A stretch of DNA of 64,000 nucleotides from Geomonas sp. RF6 (lineage in GTDB: Bacteria > Desulfobacterota > Desulfuromonadia > Geobacterales > Geobacteraceae), in assembly GCF_021044625.1 (NCBI RefSeq), contig NZ_CP087999.1, positions 2,125,001 through 2,189,000 on the forward strand, written 5' to 3'. Positions within the stretch are counted from its first letter, which is position 1. Every line of letters starts with the position of its first letter. Positions 16,684-22,964 of the stretch are shown piece by piece. The notes beneath the pieces are model-generated. The model ran no database searches, had not been told where the DNA came from, and saw nothing but the letters and a program-made list of their open reading frames with translations. The translations under genes were made by a program, and so were the position numbers.

Positions 16684-17990
16684 CAGCGTTGTCCGGTTAG
16701 GTTTTTGCTTTGCGTCGTTTCTGCTTTTTTCGGTTTTTTTTGGCCTCATTTTTTCGCAGTCTAGAGGCTTCAGCTGCCATTCCAGCAGCTTCACTAGCGA
16801 TTTTGTTTCTTAGCTCTCTGACACGATTGATGCTCACCCGCTCGTTATGCTGTTCTTGGCAGTAAATGGCCAGGAGAAGGTAAGTGATAAGTCCACTAAG
16901 GACCTGCACCATCACGCCATACTGGCTTCTGGCGATTAAGTGGTAGACGTTGAGGTATCGTTTCCACCAGCCAAAGAAGGTCTCTATGTTCCAACGTAGT
17001 TTGTAGGCTTCGGCCACCTGTTCAGCGGTAAGGTCATAGCGGTTTGTCGCAACCCAGTATTCCTTTCGGTCAACGCGATAGCCAACTACTCGGAGCTCTT
17101 TCTGCCCTTCAGTGAGCCCCTTCTTGCCCAGAATAACGATGGCGTCATAAAAGACGATGTCACTGTGCGGAAGAGGATTTTGACGGACGACCTTCTTTCT
17201 GGCTCTCTGCTGGATGCGGCAGATAAAGAGTTTGCCGTCTTCTTGCCACTGATCGAAGTCGGCGTTGCATTGGTACCCTCGATCAAGGACAGCAGTTTCG
17301 CCAGGCTGGAGGATACGGTCTACATACTGCCGCTCCACCTGGTTAGCGTCAGTCACGACCACACTCGTCGGCACACCACGGTTCAGATCAAGGCCTACGT
17401 GGGCTTTGGCTTTATTGTGAGTGCTTGAGTACTGCGCCCAATCCATGGACATCAAAGCGTCGATGACAGATCCATCGATGCCAACAAGGTTGCCAAGTTC
17501 TGCGTGTTGGGCGGGAATGACTTTGCGAGCCTCTTTCGCCAGTGCTCCAAAGATTTCAGTGAGTTGTTCGAGTCCACGTGTGTTGATAGCCTCAAAAAAG
17601 GCGGATTTTTTAACGCCTTTAGGTGGCGCAACACATTCCTTGGCGAAATTGTCCTGTTCCAGGGCCTGGATCAGTTCTCTTCCAGAAGAGAATTCCTGGA
17701 GATGGTAGTAGACAAGGGCCTTTAGCTGATCGTCGAATGACAGTTGCAACGGTCGGTAACCTCTCGATGTAAGTGGAGAAACAGGGGTGCATGATCTCTT
17801 TACTGGGTCGAGAAGTCTATTAAATTCATAAGGATTCTGCGGCTTTTGTCTGCTGAAGGGACGCATGTCGTAACCACTCCCGAATTACGTAGTTACGAAC
17901 GCGGCGCGCGCCACCCTTCAACAGATGTCAAGCAAAAAGTACAGCAATATCAAAGATTTCAGAGAGCAAGAACCTAACCGGACAACGCTG
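16684..17990 (-). mobile_element. IS4-family insertion sequence, complete
   Basis: The element is 1307 bp. The terminal inverted repeats start CAGCGTTGTCCGGTTAGGTT at the left end and its match (one mismatch in the first 20) at the right end, followed by weaker pairing. It is flanked by a 9-bp direct repeat GGGACAGGG (16675-16683 and 17991-17999). It carries a single intact transposase on the minus strand, so it may still be mobile. Confidence 0.95.
16697..17866 (-). CDS. IS4-family DDE transposase
   Basis: A 389-residue DDE transposase with catalytic D131 (VGIDGS), D195 (AVLDRGYQ) and E295. The IS4 YREK signature is complete: Y288-x2-R291-x3-E295-x6-K302 in YKLRWNIETFFGWWK. An N-terminal DUF4372-like region (PYEFNRLLDPV) precedes it and a Lys/Arg-rich tail closes it. 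No frameshift or stop is present. Confidence 0.95.
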   Translation of the reverse strand: MRPFSRQKPQNPYEFNRLLDPVKRSCTPVSPLTSRGYRPLQLSFDDQLKALVYYHLQEFSSGRELIQALEQDNFAKECVAPPKGVKKSAFFEAINTRGLEQLTEIFGALAKEARKVIPAQHAELGNLVGIDGSVIDALMSMDWAQYSSTHNKAKAHVGLDLNRGVPTSVVVTDANQVERQYVDRILQPGETAVLDRGYQCNADFDQWQEDGKLFICRIQQRARKKVVRQNPLPHSDIVFYDAIVILGKKGLTEGQKELRVVGYRVDRKEYWVATNRYDLTAEQVAEAYKLRWNIETFFGWWKRYLNVYHLIARSQYGVMVQVLSGLITYLLLAIYCQEQHNERVSINRVRELRNKIASEAAGMAAEASRLRKNEAKKNRKKQKRRKAKT

Positions 17991-20002: not shown

Positions 20003-20027
20003 GTGTCTTTTTTTGCTGTGCCACTTG

Positions 20028-20056
20028 TTGCACACTTTTCGCTAATCAGGTACTAT
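20028..20056 (+). promoter_or_regulatory. Sigma-70-type promoter of the hydrogenase-like regulator gene
   Basis: TTGCAC, a 17-base spacer and TACTAT lie 49 bases before the ATG at 20105. A TGTGCCA half-site at 20017-20023 matches the inverted-repeat arms found downstream of the gene, which hints at self-regulation. Confidence 0.65.
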
Positions 20057-20104: not shown

Positions 20105-22390
20105 ATGTACCCGATAATCACCATTTCAGACCATTGCCGCAAGTGCTACTCCTGCATGAGGAGCTGTCCGGTGAAGGCAATCAAGGTCGAGAACACCTAC
20201 ACCGACATCATTCCTGAGCGCTGCATCGGCTGCGGCAACTGCCTCAGCAACTGCCCGCAGCACGCAAAGGTCCTCTCCGACAACGTCTCCGTGACGGAGC
20301 AGCTTCTCGCGTCGCGGGACATCGTCGTCGCCGTCCTCGGCTGCTCCTTCCCCTCATACTTCCACTATGCCACGCCGGGGCAGCTTGCCGCGGGGATCAG
20401 GCGCGCAGGATTTGCGGAGGTGCACGAGGGGGCCAGCGGGGTGGAGCTCATCGGCCTCGAGTACGCAAAGGCGCTGGAGACGAGCGAGGGGCCCCTCATC
20501 TCCTCCCACTGCCCTGCGGTCATCGACCTCATCGAGCGCCACTACCCCCAGCTCCTGAAAAACCTGGTGGGGGCGGTAACCCACATGGTGGCGATGGGGC
20601 GGATGGTGAAGGGAATCCTCGGCAGCCATGTGAAAGTCGTGTACATAAGCTCGTGCGTGGCGGCGAAGTTCCAGGTGGAAGACGAAAAGGCGTGCGGGGC
20701 GGTCGATCTGGTGCTGACCTACCGGGAGCTGGAGTCGATCTTCAGTTCCCGTTCCATCGACATCACGAAGATCGAGCCGGAGCCGTTCGACGGCCGCGAG
20801 CCCCACCTCGGCAGGCTCTTTTCCCTTTCGCAAGGCTCCTTCCGTGCGCTGAACCTCGACATCGACCCCCTCGACACCGAGATCATGACAGCGGAAGGGG
20901 AGGTCAACGTGATGGGGATCGTGAAGGATCTCGCGGCGGGGAGGATCAGCCCGAAGCTCGTCGACCTGCGCTACTGCTACGACGGCTGCATCGGCGGCCC
21001 TGGTAAGAACAGCGACATCACCGAGTTCTCCCGCCGAAACCAGGTCATCTCCCACTTCAAGAGCCCGCCGGAATACCGCACCTCAGAGCCGTACCTCTCC
21101 GACCTCTCCGGCATCACCTTCACCCGCTCTTTCACCGACCGGCACGCGAAGCTGCCGCTGCCGAAGGGGTCGGACGTGAAGAAGATCCTGCAGGCGACGA
21201 ACAAGTTCACCCGCAAGGACGAGCTCGACTGCCGCGCCTGCGGCTACCGCACCTGCCGGGAGTATGCCGTCGCCGTCTTCCAGGGGCTCGCCGACCTGGA
21301 GATGTGCCTGCCGCACAACCTGCAGCAGCTCGAGGAGGAGCGCGGCCGACTGATCCAGAAATACGAGCTCGCCAAGCGTGAGCTCGACCAGGGGACGAGA
21401 GACGAATTCATCGTCGGCTCCGACAGCAAGACGCTGGAGGCGCTGGAGCAGATAAAGCAGGTCGGTCCCACCCCCACCACGGTCCTCGTGCGCGGCGAGT
21501 CCGGGACCGGAAAGGAGCTCGCCGCCCGCGCCATCCACCGGCTCAGCAAGAGAGGGGACAAGCTCCTCGTCACGGTGAACTGCACCGCCATCACCGACTC
21601 CCTTCTGGAGAGCGAGCTCTTCGGCCACAAGAAGGGGGCGTTCACCGGCGCCATCGCGGACAAGAAAGGGCTTTTCGAGGCCGCAGACGGCGGCACGATT
21701 TTCCTCGACGAGATCGGGGACATTACCCCGAAGCTGCAGGGGGAACTCCTGAGGGTCCTCGATATCGGTGAGGTGCGGCCGGTCGGCGGAACCTCCTCGA
21801 AGCGTGTCGACGTGCGCCTCATCGCCGCCACCAACAAGTGCCTGGAGGACGGCGTGCGCGACGGCTGGTTCCGCGAGGACCTCTATTACCGGCTCAACGT
21901 CTTCTCCATCACCATGCCGCCGCTGCGGGAAAGGACCAAGTCCATACCGGAGCTGGCACACTACTTCCTGGACAAGTCGCGCAAGAAGCTCGGCAAGAAC
22001 ATCGTGGGGATAGAGGAGCGCGCCATCAACGCCATGATGCGCTACCCCTGGCCGGGTAACATCAGGGAGATGCAGAACATCATCGAGCGTGCCGCGGTCC
22101 TCACCAACGACGAGCTCATAAAGCTCGGCAATCTCCCACTTGCCTTCGCAGAGAGCTACGCGGAGGAAGGGGAGGACGTCATCGACCTGCGCTCCTTCAA
22201 AAAGGAGCGCGAACCGCACGTGCTCCGGGTGGAAAAGAAGCTGATCCAGCGGTATCTGAATGACGCCGGAGGTAATGTGTCAAAAGCGGCACAACTTGCA
22301 AACATCCCCAGACGCACCTTTTACCGCATATTGGACAAGCACGGCCTGAAAGGACGGAGTATAAGGGCCCGGGACCATGGCGAGGAGTAG
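20105..22390 (+). CDS. FeFe-hydrogenase-like sensor domain fused to a sigma-54 activator
   Basis: The 761-residue fusion begins with a 2[4Fe-4S] ferredoxin (C11/14/17/21 and C40/43/46/50). An FeFe-hydrogenase large-subunit domain (about 70-350) follows, keeping the four H-cluster cysteines: C136 in SSHCPAV, C184 in ISSCVAAK, and C291 and C295 in CYDGCIGGPG. Next come a C-x2-C-x4-C-x16-C cluster motif (C376-C401) and an AAA+ domain with GESGTGKE (464-471), GAFTGA (511-516) and TIFLDE (531-536). A Fis-type HTH ends it. The proton-relay cysteine of catalytic hydrogenases (TSCCP) is a histidine here (H135). Cytoplasmic H2 or redox sensing coupled to sigma-54 transcription is inferred. GAGGG precedes the ATG at 20105. 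Confidence 0.92.
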   Translation: MYPIITISDHCRKCYSCMRSCPVKAIKVENTYTDIIPERCIGCGNCLSNCPQHAKVLSDNVSVTEQLLASRDIVVAVLGCSFPSYFHYATPGQLAAGIRRAGFAEVHEGASGVELIGLEYAKALETSEGPLISSHCPAVIDLIERHYPQLLKNLVGAVTHMVAMGRMVKGILGSHVKVVYISSCVAAKFQVEDEKACGAVDLVLTYRELESIFSSRSIDITKIEPEPFDGREPHLGRLFSLSQGSFRALNLDIDPLDTEIMTAEGEVNVMGIVKDLAAGRISPKLVDLRYCYDGCIGGPGKNSDITEFSRRNQVISHFKSPPEYRTSEPYLSDLSGITFTRSFTDRHAKLPLPKGSDVKKILQATNKFTRKDELDCRACGYRTCREYAVAVFQGLADLEMCLPHNLQQLEEERGRLIQKYELAKRELDQGTRDEFIVGSDSKTLEALEQIKQVGPTPTTVLVRGESGTGKELAARAIHRLSKRGDKLLVTVNCTAITDSLLESELFGHKKGAFTGAIADKKGLFEAADGGTIFLDEIGDITPKLQGELLRVLDIGEVRPVGGTSSKRVDVRLIAATNKCLEDGVRDGWFREDLYYRLNVFSITMPPLRERTKSIPELAHYFLDKSRKKLGKNIVGIEERAINAMMRYPWPGNIREMQNIIERAAVLTNDELIKLGNLPLAFAESYAEEGEDVIDLRSFKKEREPHVLRVEKKLIQRYLNDAGGNVSKAAQLANIPRRTFYRILDKHGLKGRSIRARDHGEE

Positions 22391-22410: not shown

Positions 22411-22454
22411 TTTGGCACACGCCGACTGGGTGGTAATGGTGCAGGTGTGCCAAA
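22411..22454. promoter_or_regulatory. Inverted-repeat pair, likely enhancer for the sigma-54 activator
   Basis: TTTGGCACAC (22411-22420) and GTGTGCCAAA (22445-22454) are perfect 10-bp complements 24 bases apart. They lie about 135-175 bases upstream of the predicted sigma-54 start, the usual distance for an upstream activating sequence. The activator gene lies immediately upstream. Confidence 0.6.
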
Positions 22455-22561
22455 TGTGGCTCAAGTTGTATACACAGTTGTTGCTTATAACGTATACTGA
22501 GTAAATTATATTTACCAGGAATAACGGAGGGTTATCTCGTTTTTTGCTCCTTGTGCGACTT

Positions 22562-22577
22562 TGGCACGCATGTAGCA
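22562..22577 (+). promoter_or_regulatory. Sigma-54 promoter of the ribbon-helix-helix gene
   Basis: TGGCAC-GCATG-TAGCA has the invariant GG and GC exactly 10 bases apart and differs from consensus TGGCAC-N5-TTGCA at one position. The predicted start is near 22588, leaving a 46-base leader. Confidence 0.72.
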
Positions 22578-22633
22578 GTATATAGGGGGAAATCAACAGC
22601 GAAAGCTGCCAACTATCTAAAAGGAGCGAAAAA

Positions 22634-22816
22634 ATGGGAAGAATGAGAGAAAACCCGAGGTACAACGTAATCTCCATGAGGATCAGCGACGCAGAACGTG
22701 AGACTCTCGAAGAGATCATGGCCACCACCAAGAAAAGCGTTTCCGAGATCATGCGTGAAGCTATGGAACTCGTGAAAGCAAGGGCAACGATGGAGCCGAA
22801 CAAGAAGGCAGCATAG
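22634..22816 (+). CDS. Small ribbon-helix-helix (CopG/Arc-type) protein
   Basis: A 60-residue protein whose NVISMRISDAERETLEEIM strand-helix is followed by KKSVSEIMREAMELV, the layout of an Arc/MetJ-type ribbon-helix-helix DNA-binding dimer. AAAGGAG precedes the ATG. It has its own sigma-54 promoter and terminator and sits next to the hydrogenase-like activator, so it is the most likely target of that activator. It could act as a second-tier regulator. No toxin gene follows, so an antitoxin role is not supported. Confidence 0.8.
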   Translation: MGRMRENPRYNVISMRISDAERETLEEIMATTKKSVSEIMREAMELVKARATMEPNKKAA

Positions 22817-22840: not shown

Positions 22841-22871
22841 AAAAAATAGGCCGCTCACGCGGCCTTTTTTT
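22841..22871 (+). terminator. Terminator of the ribbon-helix-helix gene
   Basis: AGGCCGC and GCGGCCT flank a TCAC loop, with A6 before and T7 after the stem. It probably works in both directions. Confidence 0.88.
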
Positions 22872-22898
22872 GTGTCTGCAGTTCTGAAAAATTAACAA

Positions 22899-22914
22899 GT
22901 GCCAATACTGGCAC
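22899..22914. promoter_or_regulatory. GTGCCA-N4-TGGCAC palindrome
   Basis: A compact palindrome using the same TGGCAC core as the enhancer-like repeat at 22411-22454. It lies beyond the ribbon-helix-helix terminator and 50 bases past the cysS stop. Its role is unclear. Confidence 0.3.
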
Positions 22915-22964
22915 AACTCCGGGTGGAGAGGGGCGGGCTCCTCCGCGAAGCCCGCCGGCCCCTC

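Follow-up and report, generated by a model that had tools for sequence, protein, structure and literature searches.

In the genome of Geomonas sp. RF6 we found a gene for a sigma-54 activator with an [FeFe]-hydrogenase-like sensory module, followed by a gene for a small ribbon-helix-helix (RHH) protein that is probably the already known regulator HgtR. We consider it likely that these genes form a one-component circuit for hydrogen, or for a hydrogen-linked redox signal, in which the [FeFe]-like activator switches on the HgtR orthologue. The circuit is old, conserved and dedicated. We observed the anatomy of the locus and its conservation, a single target per genome under a strict search pattern, the conservation of sensor residues and the co-occurrence of motifs with genes; hydrogen as the signal is what we infer from them. 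An earlier note on this DNA had proposed a dedicated sigma-54 circuit, which is real and conserved, but it chose the wrong repeat as the enhancer. It also omitted the sensor domain, the likely HgtR identity of the output and GTATAC as a second conserved motif.

Locus anatomy and the hydrogenase-like sensor

The stretch of DNA analysed here (the window) covers 64,000 nucleotides, positions 2,125,001-2,189,000 of the 5.26-Mb single-contig genome. The circuit is arranged as activator gene (20105-22390, plus strand, 761 aa), intergenic stretch, RHH gene (22634-22816, plus strand, 60 aa), terminator and convergent cysS. Both the 60-residue RHH gene and the terminator behind it, as described earlier, were confirmed, the latter as an intrinsic terminator at 22848-22873 on the plus strand with a stem at 22848-22865 and T's after it. 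For comparison we used the best 80 of 144 activator relatives found, which together with the window gave 81 loci; the closest ones came from Geomonas and related Geobacterales. The RHH gene lies directly downstream of the activator gene in 69 of the 81 loci. Many of these 69 pair loci belong to close relatives, so that the counts given here and below, in which kinship is ignored throughout, are not independent. Further away in the window, a 389-aa open reading frame on the minus strand (16697-17866) resembled an IS4-type transposase by eye.

Pfam matches, the 80 relatives and residue conservation together describe the activator as a protein with two ferredoxin-type 4Fe-4S motifs, an H-cluster-like Fe_hyd_lg_C domain, a four-cysteine FeS motif, a sigma-54 AAA+ domain and a Fis-type helix-turn-helix (HTH). 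Scores were 144.7 bits for PF02906, 220.4 for PF00158, 41.7 for PF04060 and 35.7 for PF02954, and no PAS domain was among the 25 of 26 families listed in the Pfam search. Sensor positions were mapped onto solved hydrogenases via phmmer alignments, and residues were compared in 80 activators (locus L058 left out). Cysteines 136, 184, 291 and 295, which align to the H-cluster ligands, were present in all 80. The position of CpI C299 was occupied by His in 79 activators and by Gln in one, that of M353 by Ser in 79 and by Cys in one, and the motif Cx2Cx4Cx16C (Cys 376/379/384/401) was invariant (80/80). The remaining FeS-cluster cysteines were kept equally strictly (80/80; 78/80 for the second ferredoxin motif, with two rows unread). 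In the AAA+ domain a G-[AS]-FTGA loop was found at residues 511-516 in 80/80 activators, in 46 of them as GSFTGA. An AAA+ domain with a GAFTGA loop, an HTH, a target palindrome and a -24/-12 promoter, all present here, are the marks of a sigma-54 enhancer-binding protein (EBP).

Loss of C299, Ser or Thr in place of M353, the motif Cx2Cx4Cx16C and absence of PAS are given as features of the sensory group D (M2e) enzymes in the excerpted text of PMC8163306. In its sequence the sensor looks like a sensory [FeFe]-hydrogenase of group D. Geomonas sp. RF6 has genes for a group A6 hydrogenase as well as for the maturases HydE and HydG, and is therefore probably able to build H-clusters. A search of the family showed the activator to be the sole Fe_hyd_lg_C protein in 35 of 37 activator-bearing genomes, and a complete H-cluster in such relatives is putative.

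This last count is among the points that speak for a different input to the same circuit. The sensor might read redox state, CO, O2 or FeS status, with FeS clusters only in genomes without maturases, and the equally strict conservation of the other FeS-cluster cysteines as well as the induction of hgtR by cobalt stress, reported in the available part of PMC7726332, would agree with this. We regard such an input as rather unlikely, given that the four H-cluster cysteines are invariant in 80/80 activators, that four paralogues described below face hydrogenase operons, and that hgtR is said to be hydrogen-induced in the accessible portion of PMC7894505.

Two other loci with related sensors were noticed. 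One codes for a protein that combines Fe_hyd_lg_C with a methyl-accepting chemotaxis signalling domain (G000 C1:4397312-4399192; L158:4313-6193, minus strand) and is possibly a hydrogen-taxis receptor. At G000 C1:2662086-2665943 (L157) lies another sensory [FeFe]-hydrogenase-like protein; the protein after it matches SpoIIE weakly, and a gene upstream looked Rex-like by eye.

Enhancer, promoters and number of targets

The earlier note placed a sigma-54 promoter with exact GG-N10-GC spacing at 22562-22577, and we can endorse this after counting by hand (TGGCACGCATGTAGCA, plus strand, expected start 22588). In 69/69 pair loci the RHH gene is preceded by a GG-N10-GC promoter that agrees with the consensus at 9 or more of 12 bases. 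Upstream of it, all 69 loci carry a TGTGCCA-N4-TGGCACA palindrome with at least 11 of 14 matches, which in the window reads TGTGCCA-AATG-TGGCTCA (TGTGCCAAATGTGGCTCA, 22446-22463) and which we predict to be the enhancer. The weight matrix for the enhancer was built on these same sites, and the claim rests on the consensus matches instead. The distance between palindrome and -24 element was 101-105 nt in 42 loci and 111-117 nt in 27 loci, with none at 106-110 nt. The two groups lie about one helical turn apart, as would be expected if enhancer and promoter must sit on the same side of the helix; 2.9% of random sets were phased as well as the 12 distinct distances.

The earlier note had taken a longer inverted repeat at 22411-22454 for the enhancer. 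Its two arms, TTTGGCACAC (22411-22420) and GTGTGCCAAA (22445-22454), do exist, are perfect over 10 nt, and are the only exact pair with 4-30 nt between them in the 5.26-Mb genome. The left arm, however, lies outside the conserved enhancer: it recurs in 2 of 69 loci, counted as TGGCACAC within 45 nt upstream of the palindrome, against 69/69 for the tighter palindrome, whose left half the right arm overlaps. What is conserved in the loci with the gene pair is therefore the tight palindrome and not the longer repeat. We give the longer repeat next to no weight as the enhancer and have ruled it out; its left arm is probably non-functional or an auxiliary half-site. In the same intergenic stretch, TTTTGGCCAC was seen between GTATAC and the enhancer, just upstream of the latter, in many of the loci L031-L079. 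TGGCCA occurred in 33 of 69 intergenic regions, and in 3.5 on average after shuffling.

With at most one mismatch the palindrome occurs four times in this genome, and three of these copies lie within 2.9 kb at the circuit. A site also precedes the activator gene itself, where the earlier note had described a half-site; it is in fact a full palindrome (TGTGCCACTTGTTGCACA, 20017-20034) and a candidate operator. A palindrome scoring at least 14 was found upstream of 78/80 activators (L058 not scored) versus 0/400 shuffled regions. In the window its right half forms the -35 element of a likely sigma-70 promoter, TTGCAC-N17-TACTAT (20028-20056, plus strand). The right half reads TTGCAC in 65 of 78 activator loci, and in 63 of 78 the best -10-like hexamer follows 17 nt on; at least four of six -10 positions matched in 76% of loci compared to 22% in base-shuffled sequence. 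As the right half of the palindrome doubles as the -35 box, the activator likely represses its own sigma-70 promoter and thereby limits its own synthesis.

Two further palindromes call for comment. The near-perfect operator TGTGTCAAAAGCGGCACA lies at 22276-22293, inside the codons of the activator's own HTH. Within the last 260 nt of the activator gene a score of 14 was reached in 22/80 loci, in one of them at another place, and the palindrome within the HTH codons may be explicable by coding constraint. Behind the RHH gene, the GTGCCA-N4-TGGCAC palindrome of the earlier note is present at 22898-22915 (minus strand, AGTGCCAATACTGGCACA), but counting the window itself, only 2 of 69 loci have such a palindrome there. 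Since it is unconserved and forms a minus-strand stem followed by T's, it is more likely the terminator of cysS than an operator, and an operator role for it was dropped.

The palindrome might also be the operator of the RHH protein rather than of the activator, considering that it precedes the RHH gene in each of the 69 pair loci. We think this quite improbable, because palindromes stand before 78/80 activators, including those in loci without an adjacent RHH gene. The paralogous activators in L025, L026, L027 and L030 provide further evidence. They have no RHH gene beside them, and a [NiFe]-hydrogenase operon lies upstream and divergent (by Pfam, both subunits in L027 and the cytochrome in L025; the others by eye). 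In all four loci the palindrome is found 133-136 nt before a sigma-54-like site of the hydrogenase operon with 8-10 of 12 consensus bases. This argument is not absolute, as three of the four metagenome-assembled genomes, matched by their contig prefixes, carry an RHH-linked copy elsewhere (L052, L060 and L070). Through the paralogue loci the palindrome is linked to the activator, which is itself linked to hydrogen metabolism. The activator is therefore retained as the protein that would bind the palindrome.

Of 141 genomes from the order, 72 gave a single match each to a strict pattern of enhancer plus promoter and none gave a second, versus one match in 141 genomes for the control. The pattern was unmatched in the other 69 genomes, the window's own among them, which is missed because of its TGGCTCA half. 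The match precedes an RHH gene in 71 of 72 cases (30/30 examined loci; 41/42 others by eye from coordinates), and in the remaining case, G110, the contig ends 45 nt after it. The RHH gene is the activator's only clear target. Together with the gene pair in 69/81 loci, the single strict match in each of 72/141 genomes supports the two-tier cascade that had been suggested for this locus. We also considered a wide activator regulon and found no support for it: the Geomonas genome contains 21 sites with at most two mismatches compared to 17 for the reversed pattern, and the 141 genomes had at most one composite match each under the strict pattern.

The 12 loci without an adjacent RHH gene comprise, besides these four paralogue loci, L040, L042, L061, L066, L071, L076, L080 and L081; in L040, L042 and L080 the sequence ends about 1 kb or less beyond the activator. 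In L076 (7495-7620) and L081 (7421-7550) we noticed the palindrome and a strong sigma-54 site with a terminator-like stem within about 100 nt (by eye). A gene was not obvious between site and stem, ptsP follows in L076 and apparently in L081, and the element is possibly a sigma-54 small RNA or leader.

The converse was seen in genomes of two genera, g13 and g2, where the RHH gene and its sigma-54 promoter were kept in 8/8 loci examined and a search for an Fe_hyd_lg_C frame of activator length found none. In the g13 loci L197, L198, L200 and L202 rhh, sigma-54 site and cysS are kept, and the activator was not found upstream; a palindrome scoring at least 14 was retained in one of the four. The N-terminus of the RHH protein was nearly unchanged in the four g13 proteins read. 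Four further g13/g2 promoter regions kept the sigma-54 site, with palindrome scores never above 12.1. Since the promoter is kept without the activator, either another EBP must act in g13 and g2 or the RHH gene must be off.

The RHH protein and the GTATAC motif

The match of the 60-aa protein to the RHH_1 profile is marginal (20.7 bits versus a cut-off of 20.5). A structure model of modest confidence (pLDDT 68.6, pTM 0.38) showed helices at residues 19-32 and 36-53 and no strand, and a sequence search for solved relatives gave none that was convincing. Homologues at E <= 1e-6, paralogues included, were found in 137 of 141 genomes of the order.

The original HgtR paper is reportedly that of Ueki and Lovley (2010), and GSU3365 of G. 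sulfurreducens is presumably cysS. According to the accessible text of PMC2725144, GSU3364 (HgtR) of the same organism is located behind an EBP gene, and an RpoN promoter is predicted for it; PMC7726332, in the part available, states that HgtR represses gltA, atpG and nuoA. The setting is matched here by an RHH gene beside an EBP gene and with an RpoN promoter. Based on this shared setting and on matching predicted targets, that is on position and targets rather than on the sequence of GSU3364, the RHH protein is probably the HgtR orthologue.

These predicted targets come from a second conserved motif. Two GTATAC palindromes (22468-22473 and 22492-22497) lie in the rhh promoter region of the window and are candidate operators of the RHH protein. 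GTATAC occurs in this region in 60 of 69 loci, versus a mean of 5.25 in 20 shuffles. In 41 loci it precedes the enhancer, nearly always by 18-19 nt; in 27 loci, the window among them, it stands between enhancer and promoter; and in 21 loci it follows the start of the -24 element, mostly by 18-19 nt.

Genome-wide we found 14 GTATAC pairs in 11 clusters, versus none for the reversed pattern. Clusters precede gltA (three copies), a hypB-like gene (four copies) and a NuoE-like gene (three copies) whose neighbour looks like a formate dehydrogenase (by eye), and one stands between an ech-like operon (by eye) and hydE (three copies). Three others lie upstream of the RHH gene, of an iron alcohol dehydrogenase and of an operon with a succinate dehydrogenase/fumarate reductase flavoprotein; of the rest, two are near a two-component system (by eye), one is intragenic and one is elsewhere. 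Single GTATAC copies were found 159 nt before the ATP-synthase b-type match and, for two of three nuoA matches, at distances of 279 and 433 nt upstream. The latter two are weak by themselves, since the genome has about 0.1 GTATAC per kb (8 in 66 kb).

Among gltA matches in related genomes, GTATAC was present in 37 of 55 upstream regions examined (56 matches). Of the 18 regions without it, eight came from g13/g2 and ten from genomes with a second gltA, nine of which have GTATAC at the other copy; for G050 the other copy was outside the count. In g13 and g2 we did not find GTATAC at gltA (8/8) or within 330 nt of rhh (7/7 scored). Over 43 genomes GTATAC was present at both genes in 28, at neither in seven, at gltA only in seven and at rhh only in one, a table weakened by G059 (no start), by G019 (no gltA match, counted as lacking) and by one absent G050 copy. 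From this distribution the link between RHH protein and GTATAC is therefore good yet circumstantial.

GTATAC might instead belong to a sigma-70 -10 element or be bound by some other factor. TATACT and TATACA resemble -10 boxes, the first copy at gltA overlaps a possible -10, and the seven genomes with GTATAC at gltA and none at the rhh promoter would fit such a reading. It is nevertheless unlikely in our view, as GTATAC forms arrays of two to four copies with varied spacing, the 14 pairs in 11 clusters have no counterpart for the reversed pattern, and the flanks vary while the palindromic core stays. GTATAC is probably the operator of the RHH protein. It is absent from the multicopy motifs of G. 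metallireducens in the main text of PMC2700814, as far as that text was available.

Proposed circuit and comparison with known systems

In the proposed circuit a group-D-like [FeFe]-hydrogenase sensory module, joined directly to the sigma-54 AAA+ domain and the HTH, would control a single activator that binds TGTGCCA-N4-TGGCACA, the assignment of proteins to sites being our prediction. Bound at 22446-22463, the activator would serve the 22562 promoter as enhancer-bound protein and turn the RHH gene on; bound at 20017-20034, over the -35 element, it would probably repress its own sigma-70 promoter. The HgtR orthologue would in turn probably bind GTATAC, limit its own gene and, when H2 is plentiful, repress citrate synthase, ATP synthase, NADH dehydrogenase and hydrogen/formate enzymes. 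A more specific version, to which we give slightly less than even weight, is that the activator has its own H-cluster and acts as a one-component H2 sensor driving the sigma-54 motor, with the HgtR output closing a product-feedback loop.

In their available portions, PMC8924675, PMC8163306 and PMC13104023 call it putative that [FeFe]-hydrogenases of groups C and D act as sensors. No [FeFe]-hydrogenase-like sigma-54 activator is named among the titles and abstract openings listed in literature searches, which is weak evidence of absence. We newly predict a hydrogenase-like sensor as the input of the circuit, the operator proper, a likely autorepression of the activator and a GTATAC regulon; the output is probably the known HgtR. 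Here a hydrogenase-like sensor and an activator are combined in one polypeptide, and its target is apparently an H2-induced repressor with a predicted operator and promoter. If this is true, HgtR would shut genes for H2 evolution and acetate oxidation as H2 rises, which would explain how Geobacter relatives stop both processes under abundant H2, and sensory [FeFe]-hydrogenases would gain a defined genetic output.

EBPs of the NtrC/NorR/NifA type carry receiver and GAF sensors. Like them, the activator has an AAA+ domain with a GAFTGA loop, a Fis-type HTH and a palindromic enhancer about 100-136 nt before the sigma-54 promoter, and unlike them its sensor is an [FeFe]-hydrogenase-like module. 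In the HoxJ/HoxA system a separate regulatory [NiFe]-hydrogenase sensor signals via a kinase to a sigma-54-type activator. There, too, a hydrogenase-like sensor leads to an activator of this type, but the sensor is [NiFe] and separate and works through a kinase, whereas here it is [FeFe]-like and part of the same polypeptide.

In the HgtR locus of G. sulfurreducens, too, the regulator gene comes immediately behind that of an EBP and its promoter is predicted to be of the RpoN type, and the HgtR targets gltA, atpG and nuoA match GTATAC positions found here; in contrast to the present locus, the accessible descriptions do not present the EBP as hydrogenase-like and give no HgtR operator. The group D (M2e) enzyme TamHydS, as described in the excerpted text of PMC8163306, shares with our sensor two N-terminal 4Fe-4S motifs, the H-cluster cysteines, the loss of C299 and M353, the C-terminal Cx2Cx4Cx16C and the lack of a visible PAS domain. 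TamHydS is a separate protein in that source, whereas the module described here shares its polypeptide with a sigma-54 AAA+ domain and an HTH.
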